Below, in pieces: positions 1 through 49,308 of a DNA stretch of 59,263 nucleotides. A program made the position numbers and the translations under genes. The DNA is taken from positions 1 through 59,263 of the forward strand of contig NZ_MKQD01000072.1 of the NCBI RefSeq assembly GCF_001913705.1, given 5' to 3'. How positions within the stretch are numbered: position 1 is the first letter of the stretch; the number at the start of each line of letters is the position of its first letter. Source of the stretch: Thalassotalea sp. PP2-459 (GTDB taxonomy: Bacteria > Pseudomonadota > Gammaproteobacteria > Enterobacterales > Alteromonadaceae). The notes beneath the pieces were generated by a model, which searched no databases, had not been told where the DNA came from, and was given only the letters and a program-made list of their open reading frames with translations.

Positions 1-47
1 CCCTCGCTGGTAACAGCGTGCCGGTTCAAGTCCGGCCCCGGGTACCA
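1..47 (+). tRNA. tRNA-Leu, 3' part only (probably UAA anticodon)
   Basis: The window opens inside a tRNA. Visible are a long class II variable arm (CGCTG/CAGCG pairing), a T arm with loop TTCAAGT closed by CCGG/CCGG, and a 3' end CCCCGGGTACCA with encoded CCA. The anticodon lies outside the window. The layout matches the 3' half of gammaproteobacterial tRNA-Leu(UAA), so the isoacceptor is an inference and the tRNA-Leu call is fairly sure. Confidence 0.8.
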
Positions 48-643
48 TTTGCATGCTCTTTTTATCATTCTAATTCAATTTTAAAACCCTTGAGCTACCA
101 TGGGTAGACGCATATACAAGTAACGATTTAAAACCCCTTTCTGGAAACGCAAGCGCCCCCAAAAAGGGATTAGATCATTAGTGATGTTAATATCAAGCTT
201 AGACTGTTGTCACTTTATGCGTGATATATTGTTAATTATAAAAAAATTTCCAAGTTTTGATCTTTAATCGTTTATTTCTCAGGGCATGTTTGAATGCATG
301 TTTAACAATAAATCGATACAAGGTAACGTGAAACGTGAAGGAGTGTCATTAAATTTAAAGCAAAATGCTAGGCTTATTTTTGATCGCGCTTTTAGTTTAT
401 CAATCAATTTTTAAAGGTATTTATAACCTTTCTTAAGCTGTAAAATATTGTCAAAAAGTAACAATTAACACAGAAAAAGCATTCGTATGGTGATCAACAG
501 ACCATAGAGAACAGCCCTTCAAATTTACTACTATTAACCCGCGTGATAATGAATATCACTGATTCTATATTAGAGAAATAAACCTAAGTCGTTTAGCTTA
601 AAGGTCATACCACTATGCTTGGTTTAATGATGAGGAAGGCGAA
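48..643. other. Intergenic region, about 600 bp, no gene seen
   Basis: AT-rich leader between tRNA-Leu and the icd-like gene. No convincing ORF or RNA family was recognised. A short imperfect inverted repeat (GTGAT/ATCAC, 543-559) lies about 85 bp before the gene start and could be an operator, but nothing supports that further. The icd-like gene has a good Shine-Dalgarno (GAGGAAGG) just before its ATG. Confidence 0.5.
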
Positions 644-1843
644 ATGACAACAACACAAAATACTCCTAAACATGGGCAAGAAATCACGCTGAATACCAAT
701 GGCAGTTTAAACGTACCTAATGCACCTATTATTCCGTATATCGTCGGTGATGGCATTGGCATTGATATTACACCAGTGATGTTAAAAGTAGTGGATGCTG
801 CCGTAGCAAAGGCATATGGTGGTGATAAACGAATAGTTTGGTTGAAAACCTACGCAGGCGTTAGTGCTACGGAACATTTCAATGATGATATTTGGCTGCC
901 TGATGAAACGGTTCAGGCATTTAAACAATATAAAGTAGGGATTAAAGGCCCGTTAGATGCACCAATAGGTAGTGGCTTACAATCGTTAAGTATTCAACTG
1001 CGTGAACAGTTAAAAGTGAAACATAGTATATTTTCGTTTCAGTGCTTTGATGGATTACCTAAATTCATTAATCATCAACAACAAATAGATATTGAGGTGT
1101 TTCAAGGCCAACCCTCTTTATTTTCGAATAAAGAACTCAATCAACAAACGGATGATGAAAGCTTTACGAGTACCATCGCTATTAATCGTTCTGATGTGGA
1201 ACAATTATTAAAAAAAGCGATTGAGCATGCGGTTGCACAAGATAAAAGAAGTGTTGCCTTAATACATGATGGCGGAAATACCGCAGACTTTACAGATGCG
1301 ATTTGTCGTTGGGGATATCAGTTAGCAAAAACAGAATTTGATGGCAAAGTTATTAATGGTGGTCCTTGGGTGAGTCTTGTTAACCCTAAAACAGGTACTG
1401 AAATCATTATTAAAGACATCAGTGTGGAGTCGATGATAGCACAACTTGTTTTAAACCCTGCTGAATATCAAGTGTTAGTTGCACCGTTTGCTTACGGACC
1501 AAGCTTACAAAGTTTATTATCTACATTAAGCAATACAACAGGTATTACTCCTGCGTGCTATTTAAGTGATGATGCAGCTGTATTCGAAGCAACACATGGT
1601 ACTGCTCAAAAGTATGCTGGATTAAATAAAGTAAACCCAAGCGCTTTATTACTTGCTGCTGTGTTGATGTTGAGACATATGGGATGGCACGAAGCGGCGG
1701 ATAATATTGTAAAAGGAATTCGTGATGCGATCAGGGCTAAAACAGTCACTTATGATCTAGCAAACAAAATAGCAGATAGTACCATGCTAACTAGCTCTGG
1801 CTTTGGTGATTGCATCATTGAACATATGAAAATTACTCAATAA
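644..1843 (+). CDS. Isocitrate dehydrogenase homologue, apparently catalytically dead
   Basis: 399 aa, clearly homologous over its length to dimeric NADP-isocitrate dehydrogenase (E. coli Icd, 416 aa): N-terminal PIIPYIVGDGIGIDITP, IKGPLDAPIG, and C-terminal FEATHGTAQKYAG with LMLRHMGWHEAAD. The nucleotide-binding C-terminus is well kept. Compared by eye with E. coli, most isocitrate/Mg residues are lost: Ser113 and Arg119 remain, but Asn115 is Ser, Arg129 is Phe, Arg153 is Gln, Lys230 is Asp (HDGGN instead of HKGN), Asp283 is Glu, and the Asp307/Asp311 stretch is replaced. The ORF is uninterrupted with a strong ribosome site (GAGGAAGG), so it is not an obvious pseudogene. It occupies the usual icd position opposite cspD-clpS-clpA. 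Inference: a pseudoenzyme or a protein with a new role; a functional, perhaps monomeric, Icd would be expected elsewhere. Confidence 0.85.
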   Translation: MTTTQNTPKHGQEITLNTNGSLNVPNAPIIPYIVGDGIGIDITPVMLKVVDAAVAKAYGGDKRIVWLKTYAGVSATEHFNDDIWLPDETVQAFKQYKVGIKGPLDAPIGSGLQSLSIQLREQLKVKHSIFSFQCFDGLPKFINHQQQIDIEVFQGQPSLFSNKELNQQTDDESFTSTIAINRSDVEQLLKKAIEHAVAQDKRSVALIHDGGNTADFTDAICRWGYQLAKTEFDGKVINGGPWVSLVNPKTGTEIIIKDISVESMIAQLVLNPAEYQVLVAPFAYGPSLQSLLSTLSNTTGITPACYLSDDAAVFEATHGTAQKYAGLNKVNPSALLLAAVLMLRHMGWHEAADNIVKGIRDAIRAKTVTYDLANKIADSTMLTSSGFGDCIIEHMKITQ

Positions 1844-1863: not shown

Positions 1864-1894
1864 TAAAAAAACACAGCCTCAGCTGTGTTTTTTT
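1864..1894. terminator. Bidirectional rho-independent terminator
   Basis: Hairpin with stem ACACAGC/GCTGTGT around a short loop, flanked by A-run on the left and T-run on the right. It sits between the convergent icd-like gene and cspD and can serve both. Confidence 0.85.
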
Positions 1895-2343: not shown

Positions 2344-2664
2344 ATGAGCAATTGGAAAGAAATATTCGACAACCAAGAATTGTTGGAAGATGAGGTTGTT
2401 GATCAACATCAAAAACCGCCTATGTACAATGTAGTGTTGTTAAATGATGATTACACGCCGATGGATTTTGTCATCGACGTTTTAAAAAAGTTTTTTGGTA
2501 TGAACGAAGAAAAAGCAACCGATGTTATGCTTGAAGTTCATTACAAAGGTAAAGGTCGTTGTGGCACATTTACTGCAGATGTAGCTGAAACCAAAGTCAG
2601 TTTAGTATGCGATTATGCGATAGAAAATCAGCATCCTTTAATGTGTACGATGGAAAAAGTATGA
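2344..2664 (+). CDS. clpS: ATP-dependent Clp protease adaptor ClpS
   Basis: 106 aa, the same size as E. coli ClpS. It delivers N-degron substrates to ClpAP and modulates ClpA. The N-degron pocket residues Asn34, Asp35, Asp36 ([10 protein letters not shown]) and His66 (EVHYKGKG) lie at the same positions as in E. coli. The C-terminus [20 protein letters not shown] is typical. Only a weak ribosome site (AAAAGA) precedes the ATG. clpA starts 30 bp downstream, so the two form one transcription unit. Confidence 0.96.
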
Positions 2665-2693: not shown

Positions 2694-4949
2694 ATGTTAA
2701 ATAAAGATTTAGAAATTTCGTTAAATATGGCCTTTCGTCAGGCGAAAGAGTCTCGTCATGAATTCATGACGGTAGAACACTTATTGTTAGCGTTGTTAGA
2801 CAATCCGTCTTCAATACAAGCTTTAAAGGCTTGTGGCGCTGATATGATAAAGCTTAGGCAAGAGTTGCTCGACTTTATTGCCGAAACTACACCTGTGATC
2901 CCTGCGGAAGAGGAAGAACGTGAAACTCAACCTACCCTAGGGTTTCAACGAGTATTACAGCGTGCAGTTTTTCATGTGCAATCGTCAGGGAAAAGCGAAG
3001 TTAGTGGTTCAAATGTCTTAGTTGCCATATTCAGTGAGCAAGAATCTCAAGCGGCTTATTTTCTCAAAAAATCTGATATTAACCGTTTAGATATTGTTAA
3101 TTATATTTCCCATGGTATCGCGAAGGCGGAAGGGCAGCCAAGTAATAAAGCACATGAAGAAATAAATCAGCAAGAAGAAGAACCGCGCACAGTGGAAAAT
3201 TTTGCCACAAATTTAAATGAACAAGCAAAAGTCGGCAGAATTGATCCGCTTATTGGTCGTGCAAGTGAGTTAGAAAGAACGTTACAAGTCCTCGGCCGTC
3301 GTCGCAAAAACAACCCCTTATTTGTCGGGGAGGCAGGGGTAGGAAAAACAGCGATTGCTGAAGGTCTGGCAAACCTGATTGTTTCAGAAAAAGTACCTGA
3401 GTTTTTAGCTGACACAATCATATATTCTTTAGATCTAGGCGCATTACTTGCCGGTACTAAATATCGTGGTGATTTCGAAAAACGCTTCAAAGCGTTATTG
3501 AAAGAACTTGAGCAAGAAGGGAATGCCATCTTATTTGTTGATGAAATACATACAATTATTGGCGCTGGTGCAGCTTCTGGCGGTATGATGGACGCCTCAA
3601 ATTTAATTAAGCCATTACTTTCATCAGGTAAATTACGTTGTGTGGGTTCTACCACTTATCAGGAATATCAAAATATTTTTGAGAAAGATCGCGCGTTAGC
3701 AAGAAGGTTCCAAAAAATTGATATTGTTGAACCAAGTATTGATGACACCACAAAAATTTTACAAGGCTTGAAAGAAAAATATGAGTCGCATCACGGTATT
3801 CGCTATACCAATAAAGCATTGCGTGCGGCAGCACAGTTATCGGCTAAATATATCAATGAACGCTTTTTACCTGATAAGGCAATAGATGTTATTGATGAAG
3901 CCGGTGCGAAACAACAATTGCTTGCTAGCTCTAAACGTAAAAAAGTGATTAATGATGGTGATATTGAAATAATAGTGGCGAAAATGGCAAGGATCCCTGA
4001 AAAGTCAGTATCATCGTCAGAGAAAGATAGTTTACATACCTTAGATAGAAACCTTAAATTAGTCGTTTTTGGTCAAGATCACGCGATTGATGAATTAACA
4101 TCAGTGGTACGTTTATCTCGTGCTGGTTTAGGCCAAGAAAACAAACCCGTTGGTTCATTTTTATTCGCAGGTCCTACAGGAGTCGGTAAAACTGAGGTGA
4201 CTCAACAGTTGTCTAAAGTGCTTGGAGTTGAGTTATTACGTTACGATATGTCTGAGTACATGGAAAAGCACGCAGTTAGTCGCTTAATTGGCGCACCTCC
4301 TGGTTATGTCGGTTATGAGCAGGGCGGATTATTAACAGATGCGGTGATCAAACATCCTCATGCCGTTGTGTTATTAGATGAAATAGAAAAAGCACACCCT
4401 GATGTTTACAATATTCTATTGCAAGTGATGGATCACGGTACGCTAACGGATAACAATGGCCGTAAAGCTGATTTTAGAAATATTACGCTAGTACTAACGA
4501 CAAACGCTGGTGTAGCAGAAACAACAAGACAATCAATTGGTTTTAAACAACAAGATCATAGTTTTGATGCACTGAATGAAATCAATAAAATATTTTCACC
4601 TGAATTTAGAAACCGCTTAGACAATATTATTTGGTTTAATCATCTAGATGATAATGTAATACATCAAGTCGTAGATAAATTCATTGTAGAGCTACAAGCT
4701 CAACTTGATGATAAAGGCGTTTCTCTTGAATTAACCAAAGATGCGAAAAAATGGCTTGCCGTTAATGGTTATGATAAAGCGATGGGAGCTAGACCTATGT
4801 CTCGCCTGATTCAAGAGCACTTGAAAAAACCATTGGCTAATGAATTGCTATTTGGGGATTTAGTGCAAGGTGGTGTAGCCAAAGTAGGGGTGAAAAAAGA
4901 TAAGTTAGTGTTAAGTTTTGAATCTAAAAAAGAACTTGTTGAGCATTAA
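2694..4949 (+). CDS. clpA: ATP-dependent Clp protease ATP-binding subunit ClpA
   Basis: 751 aa AAA+ unfoldase (family about 758 aa) that feeds substrates into ClpP. In order: N-terminal Clp-N repeat domain (about 1-145) where ClpS docks; D1 AAA module with Walker A GEAGVGKT at 212-219 and Walker B LFVDEIH; D2 module with Walker A GPTGVGKT at 493-500 and the small D2 C-terminal domain (ARPMSRLIQEHLKKPLANELLFG). An IGL-type ClpP loop is expected around residue 610-620 (QSIGFKQQ). It follows clpS and is closed by a strong terminator. Start chosen for the purine-rich AAGTGGAG upstream and family length. Confidence 0.97.
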   Translation: MLNKDLEISLNMAFRQAKESRHEFMTVEHLLLALLDNPSSIQALKACGADMIKLRQELLDFIAETTPVIPAEEEERETQPTLGFQRVLQRAVFHVQSSGKSEVSGSNVLVAIFSEQESQAAYFLKKSDINRLDIVNYISHGIAKAEGQPSNKAHEEINQQEEEPRTVENFATNLNEQAKVGRIDPLIGRASELERTLQVLGRRRKNNPLFVGEAGVGKTAIAEGLANLIVSEKVPEFLADTIIYSLDLGALLAGTKYRGDFEKRFKALLKELEQEGNAILFVDEIHTIIGAGAASGGMMDASNLIKPLLSSGKLRCVGSTTYQEYQNIFEKDRALARRFQKIDIVEPSIDDTTKILQGLKEKYESHHGIRYTNKALRAAAQLSAKYINERFLPDKAIDVIDEAGAKQQLLASSKRKKVINDGDIEIIVAKMARIPEKSVSSSEKDSLHTLDRNLKLVVFGQDHAIDELTSVVRLSRAGLGQENKPVGSFLFAGPTGVGKTEVTQQLSKVLGVELLRYDMSEYMEKHAVSRLIGAPPGYVGYEQGGLLTDAVIKHPHAVVLLDEIEKAHPDVYNILLQVMDHGTLTDNNGRKADFRNITLVLTTNAGVAETTRQSIGFKQQDHSFDALNEINKIFSPEFRNRLDNIIWFNHLDDNVIHQVVDKFIVELQAQLDDKGVSLELTKDAKKWLAVNGYDKAMGARPMSRLIQEHLKKPLANELLFGDLVQGGVAKVGVKKDKLVLSFESKKELVEH

Positions 4950-5018: not shown

Positions 5019-8000
5019 TTATTTTTTACGTTTAACAAATGTACTAAAGATAAGTAACGAGATCAGGTACCATATAGCGCCTCCGCCACTGCTGCTGCCA
5101 CCTCCAGTAGTTGGAGGTGGAGTAGTACTGTCATTATCAATAATGGTGACTGTAACAGTATCGTTCTCGCCAAGTAAACTCATGTCATCTGCCGTCAGTG
5201 TCACGGTAAATGTTTCATCGCTTTCATCAAGGGTGTCATTGGTAATATTAACGGTGATCGTTTTTTGTATTTCACCGTCTTCAAAGGTTATTGTACCTTC
5301 GGTTAACTCATAATCACTGCCATTTAATGCGCTAGCATCATGGGTTTGATAGTTAACCGATAACGCTCCATATGAGCCATTTGAACGGGATATTATTAAT
5401 GATACTTCATTATCATTTTCATTTATCGAAGTACTCGCCGTTGTGAATGCAACTTTTCCAACAACGGGTTGTTCATCTTCTAAAATGGTGATTGAAAGGT
5501 TTTTATCCTCATCATTGATTACAGCTCCATTGGCATTTGAAAGTGATAAGTAAAAAACCCGATCGCCGGAATAATCAGAGTTATTGATGATGTTAACAGT
5601 AACCTCTTTCGTGTATTCGCCTTGTGCAAAATTGATCACTTGTTCTTCAAATTGATAATCCACATCATTTACTGCACTTGCATCTATCGCTCCAACCGTT
5701 ATTGATGCTTCGTTAGGTGCTTGATTCGGCCGTTGTAGGGTCACTGTAACACTAGCTTCACTCTCGGAAACTTCTAAATTTTCTGTTAACCAAGAAATAT
5801 TGGCTTGGTCGGTATCTTGTATCGTCACATCAATTTTATCAGGGGTGCCAATATTGCCAGTAGATATATTCTCTAAGGAAAGCTTAAAGGTTTTACCCTG
5901 ATCAAATTCATTATCTCTTACTGAAGATAAATAAAGTACTTTAAAAAACTCATTGTCTGCAAAGGTCAATGTTTGCGATAACTCTACATAGTCATTTCCA
6001 GCGGTAGCTGTTTCAGCATTTGCTTTTAAATCGATACTTATTTCGCCACTTCCACCTTGAGATCGAATCACTTTGAACAAATTAATTTCACTATTTTCTT
6101 CAAGGGTAAAATGAGTCAGTTGAAAGTGAATACTACCTGGCTGAGTATTGTGATAAATAGGGTTGGTATCATTCGCAAGTTCAGCGTCATTACTCACACC
6201 ATCACCATCAAAATCTTGTAAGTCACTGATTGGATCGCACGATGACGCTTTAAAGAAGTTACTGACGTTGATAAAACGTTCAACATAGTTTTGTTGCCAG
6301 CATTGAATATCTATTAATCCTGATGTATTGATAGTTTGCCATTGATTATGAAGCTCAAATATAGCGCTAACATCAGTCACATTCGAGTTACTGATGTCCA
6401 AGTTATTTAACGCTAAGCCATACTGTAAAGCTGAAATATCATTAACCATAGTATTCGTGATATTTAGGGTGGATAACTTCTGTAGGTTGTTTACAAATGC
6501 TAAAGAATTTACTTGAGTATTATCGAGCAGCAACTTGGTTAACTGCGTTAATTCGCCCAAACTTGTTGTATTCACGAACGGGTTATTGCTTAGCGTTAAC
6601 TCTTCCAAATTAGTTAAAGCATTAAGAGCACTGATATTATTTATATTGTTATCTGCTAAATATAATTTTTCCAAAAATGGCATCTGGATAATATTTTCAA
6701 TGCTTTGTAATGAATTGTTGTTAATTTCTAATACGTTCAAACTCGGCATTTGTTCGCCAAGTGGAATCGTAACAATATCATTATGATCTATTTCAAGCGT
6801 TTCTAGTGAAAATAAACTCAAGAGAGGCGAGATGTCAGTAATTTCATTGTGATAAAGTGCTAAAATTTCTAATTTTTTTAAGTTCTCTAATGGCGAAACA
6901 TCTATTACATCATTGTAGCCTATATATAAAAACCGTAAAAAAGAGAGATTTGCTAACGCAGAAATATCACTTATGTTGTTACTTGATAAATACAAGTATT
7001 CAAGTGCATTTAAGTTTTCTAATACCTCAATAGATTGAATGCTATTATTGGTTGCATATAAATAATAAAGTTCGGTTTTACCAGCAAGCGCAGAAAGGTT
7101 TTCAATATTATTATCATTTATCCAAAGTTGTTTCATTCGGTTATTGGCTGAAAGTGCAGATATATCAACAATATTATTAAAATCAAGGTACACATTGGTC
7201 AACTGGCTTGTTTGTGATAACGCACTAATATCGTTAATGTTGTTATCTGATAAGGATAAGTATGAAAGTTTCGTAAGCCCAGAAAGTGGTGATAAGTCGC
7301 TTATGTTATTACTATCTAGCGTTAAGCTAACAATATTTGGAAAATGCTCAATGCCGTTGAGTAAATCAACATTATTAAAACTACAATAAAGATCAGTCAC
7401 TTGGCCAGCATATTTAATATCGCTGTTGTTAATGGTATTACTTAAACATTGTTTTAAATTGTTATCGGTTATATTGGCTAATGCTTCATTAGCAAGAGCT
7501 AAGTTAGGCTCTGCCTGAAATAAGTTTTCTAGCTCAGTATTTACTTGGTTTAATGCGAAACTAGCATCAGCGCCATTTACAGGATCATTTCTATCGATAC
7601 CACAAGGTAACTCTGTACATAAAATATCAGGATTTGAAAATTTATATATTTTACCAGCGTTGTTAACAGAATAAGCCATTACCGATGAAAAACCATTGTC
7701 TACATCTTGTATTCGATGACCTAAAGCGTAAGGAAATGTATAACCTGTATCTCCTTGTGCACGAGAGTGGGCTAGCCCCATGTTATGGCCTAACTCATGG
7801 GCAAGTACATAATCACCACAATCGATACTGGTATGACTAAACATATAATTTGTTGAATTAGCAATGGTTGCATTACCCCACGCTAGACCACAAGCTGTAT
7901 CACCATCAACAAAAGGGCGTAATAGGGCAACCATATCGGCACCTTGTTCAAAACGAATGTTTTCTATATCACTAAATGCTTCATGTTCGTTAAAGGTTAT

Positions 8001-8789
8001 ATCATCAAGTGCAGTATCTGAATCTAATTCGGTTGGGTAATCGACTGACATAATATCAGCCGCTGTTATTTGCATATTGACATTGCTATCAATATAAATT
8101 TGATTAGTTACTTCTATTAGATGTTCAATACGCGTTAACACATCACCATTGTATTCACTGTCGATAAAACTTTGTGGTATGGCATAGACAAATAATACAT
8201 CAACATTTGTATTGTTTGCTGCAGAGTTTCTTGCTTTGGTTGGTGCTGAACGTTTGATATTACCGTGATGTTTAAAATGTTTTTGTTCAGGAGCTGCAAT
8301 ATTCTTGTGCTTTGTTAATATTCGTTTTTTGGGTGTTTTTACGTCATTGACAAGTGGTGCATGATGTTTAAATTTTTCTTCGATTATCCAGCCTGATTGC
8401 TGTTTACCTTGCGCAACCCATGTTTTTTCTGGTGCAACAATTCGCATAAAAAACTGTTTTTCCCCTAGGGTGATCACCAAAGGTAAGTTTCGTTGCTGTT
8501 GATGAATATGAGCAATAATATGTTTTGTATGGGCTTTTTCTTTGATATTGATAATGTTAGCGAGGTAACTTTTACCATCTTTAAGATTTACGGTAAACGT
8601 ATCACCAATATTAAAAGAGGCCAGGGTACTGGAGTTTAGCGTAAATTTATCGCCTTGCTGATATTTAACACCTATACCTGAATTGCTAGTATGTTGTTCT
8701 GCCTGTACGTGACGCCAATTAAATAAATTATCAGCTGCCGATAATTGCGGTGCGATGAGAAAGGTTAAGGCACCTAGAAGATACTTCAT
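5019..8789 (-). CDS. Secreted zinc metalloprotease with LRR, Calx-beta repeats and GlyGly-CTERM
   Basis: 1256-aa modular exoprotein. Signal peptide MKYLLGALTFLIAPQLSA; a pro-region to about 190; a metzincin-type peptidase domain (about 195-430) with zinc motif HELGHNMGLAH (His331, Glu332, His335, His341) and a Met-turn-like SVMAYS about 30 residues later, as in reprolysin-like M12/M72 peptidases; about a dozen 22-residue leucine-rich repeats of internalin/SDS22 type (pattern NNISDISALANL, about 470-830); a short Ca-binding DFDGDGVSNDAEL segment; three Calx-beta domains (about 890-1220); then PPPTTGGGSSSGGG, a hydrophobic helix and the basic tail VKRKK. The tail fits the GlyGly-CTERM sorting signal, which in other bacteria is processed by rhombosortase after type II secretion. 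Target unknown; adhesion plus proteolysis is an inference. Confidence 0.85.
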   Translation of the reverse strand: MKYLLGALTFLIAPQLSAADNLFNWRHVQAEQHTSNSGIGVKYQQGDKFTLNSSTLASFNIGDTFTVNLKDGKSYLANIINIKEKAHTKHIIAHIHQQQRNLPLVITLGEKQFFMRIVAPEKTWVAQGKQQSGWIIEEKFKHHAPLVNDVKTPKKRILTKHKNIAAPEQKHFKHHGNIKRSAPTKARNSAANNTNVDVLFVYAIPQSFIDSEYNGDVLTRIEHLIEVTNQIYIDSNVNMQITAADIMSVDYPTELDSDTALDDITFNEHEAFSDIENIRFEQGADMVALLRPFVDGDTACGLAWGNATIANSTNYMFSHTSIDCGDYVLAHELGHNMGLAHSRAQGDTGYTFPYALGHRIQDVDNGFSSVMAYSVNNAGKIYKFSNPDILCTELPCGIDRNDPVNGADASFALNQVNTELENLFQAEPNLALANEALANITDNNLKQCLSNTINNSDIKYAGQVTDLYCSFNNVDLLNGIEHFPNIVSLTLDSNNISDLSPLSGLTKLSYLSLSDNNINDISALSQTSQLTNVYLDFNNIVDISALSANNRMKQLWINDNNIENLSALAGKTELYYLYATNNSIQSIEVLENLNALEYLYLSSNNISDISALANLSFLRFLYIGYNDVIDVSPLENLKKLEILALYHNEITDISPLLSLFSLETLEIDHNDIVTIPLGEQMPSLNVLEINNNSLQSIENIIQMPFLEKLYLADNNINNISALNALTNLEELTLSNNPFVNTTSLGELTQLTKLLLDNTQVNSLAFVNNLQKLSTLNITNTMVNDISALQYGLALNNLDISNSNVTDVSAIFELHNQWQTINTSGLIDIQCWQQNYVERFINVSNFFKASSCDPISDLQDFDGDGVSNDAELANDTNPIYHNTQPGSIHFQLTHFTLEENSEINLFKVIRSQGGSGEISIDLKANAETATAGNDYVELSQTLTFADNEFFKVLYLSSVRDNEFDQGKTFKLSLENISTGNIGTPDKIDVTIQDTDQANISWLTENLEVSESEASVTVTLQRPNQAPNEASITVGAIDASAVNDVDYQFEEQVINFAQGEYTKEVTVNIINNSDYSGDRVFYLSLSNANGAVINDEDKNLSITILEDEQPVVGKVAFTTASTSINENDNEVSLIISRSNGSYGALSVNYQTHDASALNGSDYELTEGTITFEDGEIQKTITVNITNDTLDESDETFTVTLTADDMSLLGENDTVTVTIIDNDSTTPPPTTGGGSSSGGGAIWYLISLLIFSTFVKRKK

Positions 8790-32757: not shown

Positions 32758-32834
<77 letters not shown>

Positions 32835-33119
32835 TCCGAATGACTTGATAAGAACTTATCAAGAAAGCCTATAACTGTTTGATTCTGTTATAAAAGAATT
32901 ACATTTTTAAACTTTGTAAAAAGTTGGTTGCGGGAGCCACTATTTTGAAGAGAGTGAACTGACGACCTAAGGTCGTACATCCCATTTAAGCTTTATTTTA
33001 ATTCTAAACTTAATAAAGAATTGGTTGCGGGAGCCACTATTTTTGAAGAGAGTGAACTGACGACCTAAGGTCGTACATCCCGTTTAAGCTTTATTTTAAT
33101 TCTAAACTTAGTAAAGAAT

Positions 33120-33196
<77 letters not shown>

Positions 33197-33418
33197 TCCG
33201 AATGACCTACAAAAAGTAGGAAAGCCAAGTTGTTTTGATTCAAACTTAAGAAAGGAACTGACGACCTAAGGTCGTACATCCCATTTAAGCTTTATTTTAA
33301 TTCTAAACTTAGTAAAGAATTGGTTGCGGGAGCCACTATTTTTGAAGAGAGTGAACTGACGACCTAAGGTCGTACATCCCATTTAAGCTTTATTTTAATT
33401 CTAAACTTAGTAAAGAAT

Positions 33419-33495
<77 letters not shown>

Positions 33496-49011: not shown

Positions 49012-49102
49012 GGTGAGATGGCTGAGTGGTCGAAAGCACCGGTCTTGAAAACCGGCAAGGGTTTGTAGCCCTTCTAGGGTTCAAATCCCTATCTCACCGC
49101 CA
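49012..49102 (+). tRNA. tRNA-Ser (UGA), copy 1
   Basis: 91 nt class II tRNA with a long variable arm (AAGGGTTTGTAGCCCTT), anticodon TGA in GGTCTTGAAAACC, acceptor GGTGAGA/TCTCACC, discriminator G and encoded CCA. Confidence 0.97.
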
Positions 49103-49107
49103 TATAT

Positions 49108-49134
49108 AAAAGCCTCGCGAAATCGAGGCTTTTT
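49108..49134 (+). terminator. Terminator after tRNA-Ser copy 1
   Basis: AAAAGCCTCG / CGAGGCTTTTT with a 6-nt loop. Confidence 0.88.
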
Positions 49135-49159
49135 ACTTTAAAAAAACATGTAAAAATGC

Positions 49160-49188
49160 TTTACAACAGACGAGCGAATTATTACTAT
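49160..49188 (+). promoter_or_regulatory. Promoter of tRNA-Ser copy 2
   Basis: -35 TTTACA, 17-nt spacer, -10 TACTAT, GC-rich start TCGCACCGC, ending about 30 bp before the tRNA. Confidence 0.6.
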
Positions 49189-49217
49189 TCGCACCGCTTT
49201 TATAAAAGCGAATATTT

Positions 49218-49308
49218 GGTGAGATGGCTGAGTGGTCGAAAGCACCGGTCTTGAAAACCGGCAAGGGTTTGTAGCCCTTCTAGGGTTCAAATCCCTATCT
49301 CACCGCCA
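49218..49308 (+). tRNA. tRNA-Ser (UGA), copy 2, island attachment side
   Basis: 91 nt, identical to copy 1. The accessory island starts at its 3' end: the recombinase stop codon (complement of 49300-49302) lies in the acceptor stem, so the recombinase gene overlaps the last 9 nt of the tRNA on the opposite strand. Confidence 0.97.

Follow-up and report, generated by a model that had tools for sequence, protein, structure and literature searches.

The window analysed here, the whole stretch of 59,263 nucleotides from Thalassotalea sp. PP2-459 (a genus placed by NCBI in the Colwelliaceae, Alteromonadales), carries near its beginning a gene for a catalytically degenerate homologue of dimeric NADP-type isocitrate dehydrogenase (Icd), hereafter pseudo-Icd, followed by three genes that we take to be cspD-like, clpS and clpA, synteny agreeing with the latter two names (Table 1). 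The roughly 90 bases leading up to the ATG are well conserved in three species. Within them, the Shine-Dalgarno-like site is identical in the complete genome of the same species (G001) and in the congeneric genome G004, and reads GAGGAAAG in a third, G003. A pattern scan for promoters and terminators gave no clear excess over shuffled sequence; it missed the hairpin between icd and cspD, probably because the T run falls within the stem. Window positions 1-643, upstream of icd, are unlike G001, where a block of sigma-factor, anti-sigma, TonB-receptor and hexosaminidase-like genes (named by eye) directly precedes icd. The first 148 bases of the window match G004 DNA about 10 kb further upstream, and the difference from G001 may reflect a deletion, a rearrangement or the contig end.

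Table 1. Features of the icd locus, in window coordinates.
Feature	Position	Strand	Basis or remark
Leader element TATCAC-N8-TATTAG, also present in icd leaders of related genera	554..573	+	Motif comparison
Shine-Dalgarno-like GAGGAAGG, ATG 4 bases further on	632..639	+	Read from sequence
Pseudo-Icd gene	644..1843	+	399 aa, ATG start, frame without stops
Former phosphorylation loop, window residues 105-115 (T104D, T105A; Ser113 equivalent S114 kept)	956..988	+	Alignment
Shortened clasp, 25 residues from the Tyr160 position to the next helix	1124..1198	+	Alignment
Asp209 codon where catalytic Lys230 would stand	1268..1270	+	Alignment
Window residues 223-254, equivalent to E. coli 244-275 (AceK recognition segment region)	1310..1405	+	Alignment, no indel
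NADP loop HGTAQKYAGLNKVNP, window residues 318-332	1595..1639	+	Alignment
Terminator-like hairpin separating icd from cspD, present also in G003 and G004	1865..1894	+	Read from sequence
cspD-like cold-shock-domain gene (presumed), 74 aa	1908..2132	-	
clpS homologue (presumed)	2344..2664	+	
clpA homologue (presumed)	2694..4949	+	

Over its whole length, in sequence as well as in predicted fold, pseudo-Icd is homologous to the dimeric NADP-dependent Icds of subfamily I. The two NCBIfam models for NADP-Icd nevertheless score it at 366.6 and 372.5 bits, under their curated cut-offs of 567.3 and 490, so that it falls short of the equivalog threshold for the enzyme. E. coli-type Icd ranked first in both a PDB sequence search and a fold comparison (TM 0.86). 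The predicted fold had a mean pLDDT of 84 and a pTM of 0.86, with values below 50 at residues 107-112, in the former phosphorylation loop, and at 159-170 and 172-175, in the clasp; part of its resemblance to Icd stems from the underlying alignment, which contains canonical Icds.

Alignment to E. coli K-12 Icd (whose numbering is used below unless stated) bore out the first-pass annotation for all seven residues that it had named as lost: N115S, R129F, K230D, D283E, D307P, D311S and R153, the equivalent of which is deleted or Q depending on the alignment. D283E is a conservative substitution. T104D, T105A, Y160F and R395N extend the list. For counting, Asp311 was placed with the catalytic and metal sites, and the NADP set includes further pocket positions besides the 2'-phosphate contacts. 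The isocitrate, metal and catalytic set (T105, S113, N115, R119, R129, R153, Y160, K230, D283, D307 and D311) is otherwise modelled on table 2 in the accessible part of PMC3521221, and the 2'-phosphate contacts follow the accessible part of PMC6313988. Only Ser113 and Arg119 are kept in the first set (2/11), against ten of the 11 adenosine and 2'-phosphate positions of the NADP site (Fisher p 0.002). The ten are H339, G340, T341, A342, K344, Y345, G347, V351, N352 and Y391, in agreement with the earlier claim that the C-terminal nucleotide-binding part is retained, and the single loss, R395, is a 2'-phosphate contact. Retention of the NADP site may be regional, since its 10/11 does not differ significantly from the 30/42 kept in the rest of the C-terminal region (p 0.26). 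Twenty-two positions are deleted relative to E. coli Icd, 21 of them within the clasp, which shrinks from 46 to 25 residues, a feature absent from the first-pass annotation. Intact catalytic residues at other places, which would have spoken against the loss of the active site, appeared in none of the alignments. A compensated frameshift was ruled out, as the window, G003 and G004 genes can each be aligned over their full length with three canonical Icds in a single frame.

Orthologues with open frames were found in three further genomes, at 99% (G001), 94% (G004) and 74% (G003) amino-acid identity, and the changes are common to them, which rules out a sequencing error. A 94% identical orthologue in Thalassotalea sp. 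1_MG-2023 is probably the same record as G004. In the fifth genome of the genus, G002, we found neither an orthologue nor any dimeric Icd; both flanks of the locus, clpS-clpA and sigma-factor/receptor, are present there and are separated by ABC-transporter-like genes (names by eye).

Outside the genus, all 34 comparison loci (the 26 best family matches, seven divergent Icds from genus g19 and one Bacillota record) keep T104, T105, S113, N115, R119, R129, R153, Y160, K230, D283, D307 and D311. A canonical dimeric Icd was counted in 76 genomes of the family, and this residue check covers 33 of them; the relatives were chosen as members of the family and not by the names Colwellia and Shewanella that had been proposed. 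The divergent g19 Icds, 34-40% identical to the window's protein, were thereby ruled out as pseudoenzymes for the seven examined, and the Bacillota Icd (L048) also has intact catalytic residues. Of 394 genomes sampled from the order, 145 gave a hit at E 1e-60 and 143 of these passed the cut-off; the two below it were the window's own gene and one match covering positions 10-340 of 417. G003 lies inside this sample and was counted without a hit, which its own, likewise degenerate copy presumably explains. In this sample, a 512-bit Icd match in G500 that ends at position 340 of 417, in an open frame of 350 aa, is possibly a truncated or frameshifted icd. Among 369 genomes of the class, 113 matched at E 1e-100, the next best scoring 408 bits against 909, and among 295 genomes of the family no match exceeded 52% identity outside the genus. 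The class and family searches are blind to pseudo-Icds that arose independently, which are covered by the residue check (33 family genomes) and by the order-wide cut-off check. Within the family, order and class samples, pseudo-Icd was found in only four genomes, all of one genus, and listings of the open-licence literature turned up no bacterial pseudoenzyme of the subfamily I Icds.

The gene stands at the normal icd locus, as the first reading of the sequence had it: the same icd-cspD-clpS-clpA neighbourhood occurs at 24 of the 26 canonical family loci (L021-L046), the other two having icd alone in the available stretch. The leader element TATCAC-N8-TATTAG was exact in eight of these 26 icd leaders, present with at most one mismatch in 13 and without a match within three mismatches in four, and it was present with at most one mismatch at all four pseudo-icd loci. 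The whole window holds three such matches against 0.44 expected, the leader copy being the sole exact one. In a first tree, which included the divergent Icds and the Bacillota record, the pseudo-Icds fell outside all others; their branch measured 3.06 and drew long-branch warnings. After these eight rows had been dropped, a second tree placed them within the family's Icds, together with L023, L036, L027 and L040 (96/97) and then L032 (99/97), on a saturated stem of length 10. A topology that groups the other 26 Icds of the family was not rejected by an AU test (p 0.058); given this and the saturated stem, the exact sister of the pseudo-Icds is unsure. Of the loci compared, L023, L036, L027 and L040 are also the four whose clpS is most similar to that of the window, at 75-80% identity. 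Vertical inheritance of pseudo-Icd is thus strongly suggested by locus, leader and tree, and a horizontal origin is unsupported. Taken together, these three lines of sequence comparison point to a native icd that most likely changed in a burst and later came under constraint.

That constraint can be read from the orthologues, for which a dN/dS test had been proposed. Between the window and G004 (94.5% amino-acid identity), dN was 0.026 and dS 0.41, a ratio of about 0.06 that depends on this one species pair, because dS against G003 is saturated or not computable and yields no ratio; against G001 the ratio was 0.55 at a dS of 0.004, too close a pair to be informative. Differences between the window and G004 numbered 13, 6 and 87 at codon positions 1, 2 and 3. 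The first-pass annotation had argued that a neutral pseudogene should carry stops or frameshifts; all four genomes are free of them, and neither these marks nor a near-neutral dN/dS, by which a pseudogene would be recognised, were seen. When we simulated neutral change at 0.41 changes per site, none of 1000 runs kept the frame open, the mean outcome being 11.6 stops and 43% amino-acid identity.

Searches for other isocitrate enzymes, also suggested at the outset, found a monomeric Icd in all five genomes of the genus (1361-1388 bits, cut-off 950) and, in this genome, no second dimeric Icd at E 0.001 beyond a 335-aa NAD-Icd and one partial match, a 374-aa frame (L003, 26%) that is probably leuB. 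The genus's NAD-Icd keeps the serine loop and has a gap at the region of the recognition segment. AceK, the Icd kinase/phosphatase, is encoded in 5/5 genomes of the genus, including G002, where it must do something else since that genome has no dimeric Icd. Ten AceK active-site positions, taken from the accessible part of PMC3747045, are conserved in the four aligned loci. Across the 295 genomes of the family sample, AceK accompanied every canonical dimeric Icd (76/76 genomes) and was also present in 155 of 215 genomes without any dimeric Icd, among which we counted G087 and G123, whose sole match is NAD-Icd-like.

Pseudo-Icd itself retains the sequence features of an AceK substrate, namely a nine-residue loop that holds Ser113 and a recognition segment of unchanged length. 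According to the accessible part of PMC3521221, the AceK recognition region spans residues 239-275. Within 244-275, a range picked after the alignment had been seen, all ten canonical invariants are kept, against 113/214 elsewhere (p 0.002); over the published range the figure is 11/14. The loop region, E. coli 96-123, is about average in this respect (13/22 invariants kept, whole protein 123/224), and among the pseudo-Icds themselves the 244-275 region shows no special constraint (20/32 positions identical, whole protein 289/416). Window residues 96-123 form the longest run identical to the G003 orthologue, 28 residues (p 0.017 by shuffling).

Compared with E. coli Icd (TIGR00183 / PRK07006), pseudo-Icd is alike in ancestry, locus, leader element, predicted fold, NADP loop, Ser113, Arg119 and the AceK recognition-segment region; it is unlike that enzyme in its clasp, in its scores under the curated cut-offs and in the loss of catalytic, metal and isocitrate residues. 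The residue losses, the dN/dS ratio, the monomeric Icd in every genome of the genus, the failure to find a second dimeric Icd in this one and the lack of intact catalytic residues elsewhere support the pseudoenzyme reading put forward by the first-pass annotation, and we have very little doubt that pseudo-Icd is a pseudoenzyme under selection. Somewhat less firmly, we favour the view that the lineage's ancestral gene for dimeric NADP-Icd was converted, at its native locus, into one for a non-catalytic regulatory pseudoenzyme that probably binds NADP(H). The protein would be made from the old icd promoter and would fold like Icd; its retained adenosine and 2'-phosphate pocket probably accommodates NADP(H), and, to judge from its residues, it should be unable to oxidise isocitrate and have no isocitrate dehydrogenase activity. 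With lower confidence, it may work as a binding partner of some other isocitrate branch-point protein. AceK would be the first candidate: pseudo-Icd keeps the serine that accepts the phosphate, the length of the loop and the recognition-segment region of AceK's usual target, Icd phosphorylated at Ser113, and an intact AceK is present; unlike that target, pseudo-Icd would have no activity to switch off. It could then serve as an NADP(H)-loaded decoy or phospho-switch, although AceK is a tentative choice of partner, and its ranking ahead of NAD-Icd, the second candidate, is one that we infer weakly. Rather doubtful is the fuller picture in which the dead Icd would be an NADP(H)-sensing pseudosubstrate of AceK, controlling its former controller at the branch between the TCA cycle and the glyoxylate shunt.

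Other explanations start from the same observations. One is a slowly decaying pseudogene, or a product left with only a residual structural role: pseudo-Icd changes faster than ClpA (94% against 99% identity to G004, 74% against 96% to G003) and is absent from G002 in the same genus. Its dN/dS also exceeds those of clpA (0.013), NAD-Icd (0.015), monomeric Icd (0.031) and aceK (0.040) for the same species pair, clpS giving 0 (dS 0.04). Further ratios were 0.056 for a fecI-like gene, 0.125 for the receptor, 0.158 for the hexosaminidase-like gene, 0.162 for a fecR-like gene and 0.163 for a peptidase-like ORF, where G001 replaces the window for the fec, receptor and hexosaminidase genes that the window lacks; pseudo-Icd therefore ranks higher than the core enzymes and lower than most of its neighbours. 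A ratio of about 0.06, four genomes without stops, the conserved leader and a neutral simulation that never left the frame open weigh against decay, which is largely refuted by the dN/dS and the simulation and which we regard as very improbable. A new enzyme, catalysing another NADP-dependent or different reaction in a rebuilt cleft, would fit both the retained NADP pocket and 60 positions at which 27 canonical Icds are invariant and the three pseudo-Icds share a different residue, in many cases a polar one (for example T104D, N115S, K230D, N305Y, A326C and N327Y). These changed invariants are, however, no more constrained than average (60/82 against 289/394 aligned positions). Beta-decarboxylating dehydrogenases rely on Lys230, Tyr160, Asp307 and Asp311 for their chemistry; with these gone, the known chemistry of that family cannot remain, and we consider neofunctionalisation unlikely.

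Regulation of another isocitrate enzyme by direct pairing offers a further alternative, in which pseudo-Icd would be a regulatory subunit tuning the genome's 335-aa NAD-Icd through the shortened clasp. Lys230 completes the partner's active site in Icd dimers, and its replacement by Asp in all three species argues against such a subunit, as does the low identity between the two proteins (31%). The lengths of their clasps agree, at 25 residues each against 46 in E. coli Icd, NAD-Icd is present in 5/5 genomes of the genus, and two short strands are predicted in the clasp, though the model is weak there. The clasp is, on the other hand, both poorly modelled (residues 159-170 and 172-175 under pLDDT 50) and the fastest-changing part among the pseudo-Icds: in the stretch equivalent to E. 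coli 157-203, 21 positions are missing, and of the 26 that remain eight are identical in all three. The idea draws by analogy on yeast IDH1 and human IDH3 gamma, Icd-fold proteins that, according to the accessible part of PMC5241874, have likewise lost metal-binding Asps; a short clasp may be a further likeness. Those regulatory subunits belong to subfamily III, whereas pseudo-Icd derives from a bacterial subfamily I enzyme, and a heteromer containing it would be hypothetical. We judge the subunit improbable and retain a selected, NADP(H)-binding regulatory pseudoenzyme as the preferred reading. An apparently dead copy that selection has kept in its native place, and that can be compared with intact Icds of related genera, makes a clean case of a core enzyme turned pseudoenzyme and suggests that an enzyme of energy metabolism was recycled for a non-enzymatic job. 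It raises two testable questions: what keeps pseudo-Icd, and which role AceK plays in the numerous relatives that have no dimeric Icd.

Several minor observations were made along the way. Five g19 genomes (G254, G217, G276, G287 and G128) carry divergent dimeric Icds with altered cofactor residues (K344R/S, Y345I/L). These Icd genes lie at most about 3 kb from an AceK gene, in genomes that have two AceKs, and Icd and AceK are possibly a pair travelling together there. Elsewhere in the window, a 1256-aa ORF on the minus strand (5019-8789) contains a zinc-peptidase-like HELGH motif followed by leucine-rich-repeat-like and Calx-beta-like stretches (assigned by eye) and is fast-evolving, with identities of 83% and 57%. 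Three consecutive tRNA-Met genes lie at 32758-33495 on the minus strand, and two consecutive tRNA-Ser(tga) genes at 49012-49308 on the plus strand.
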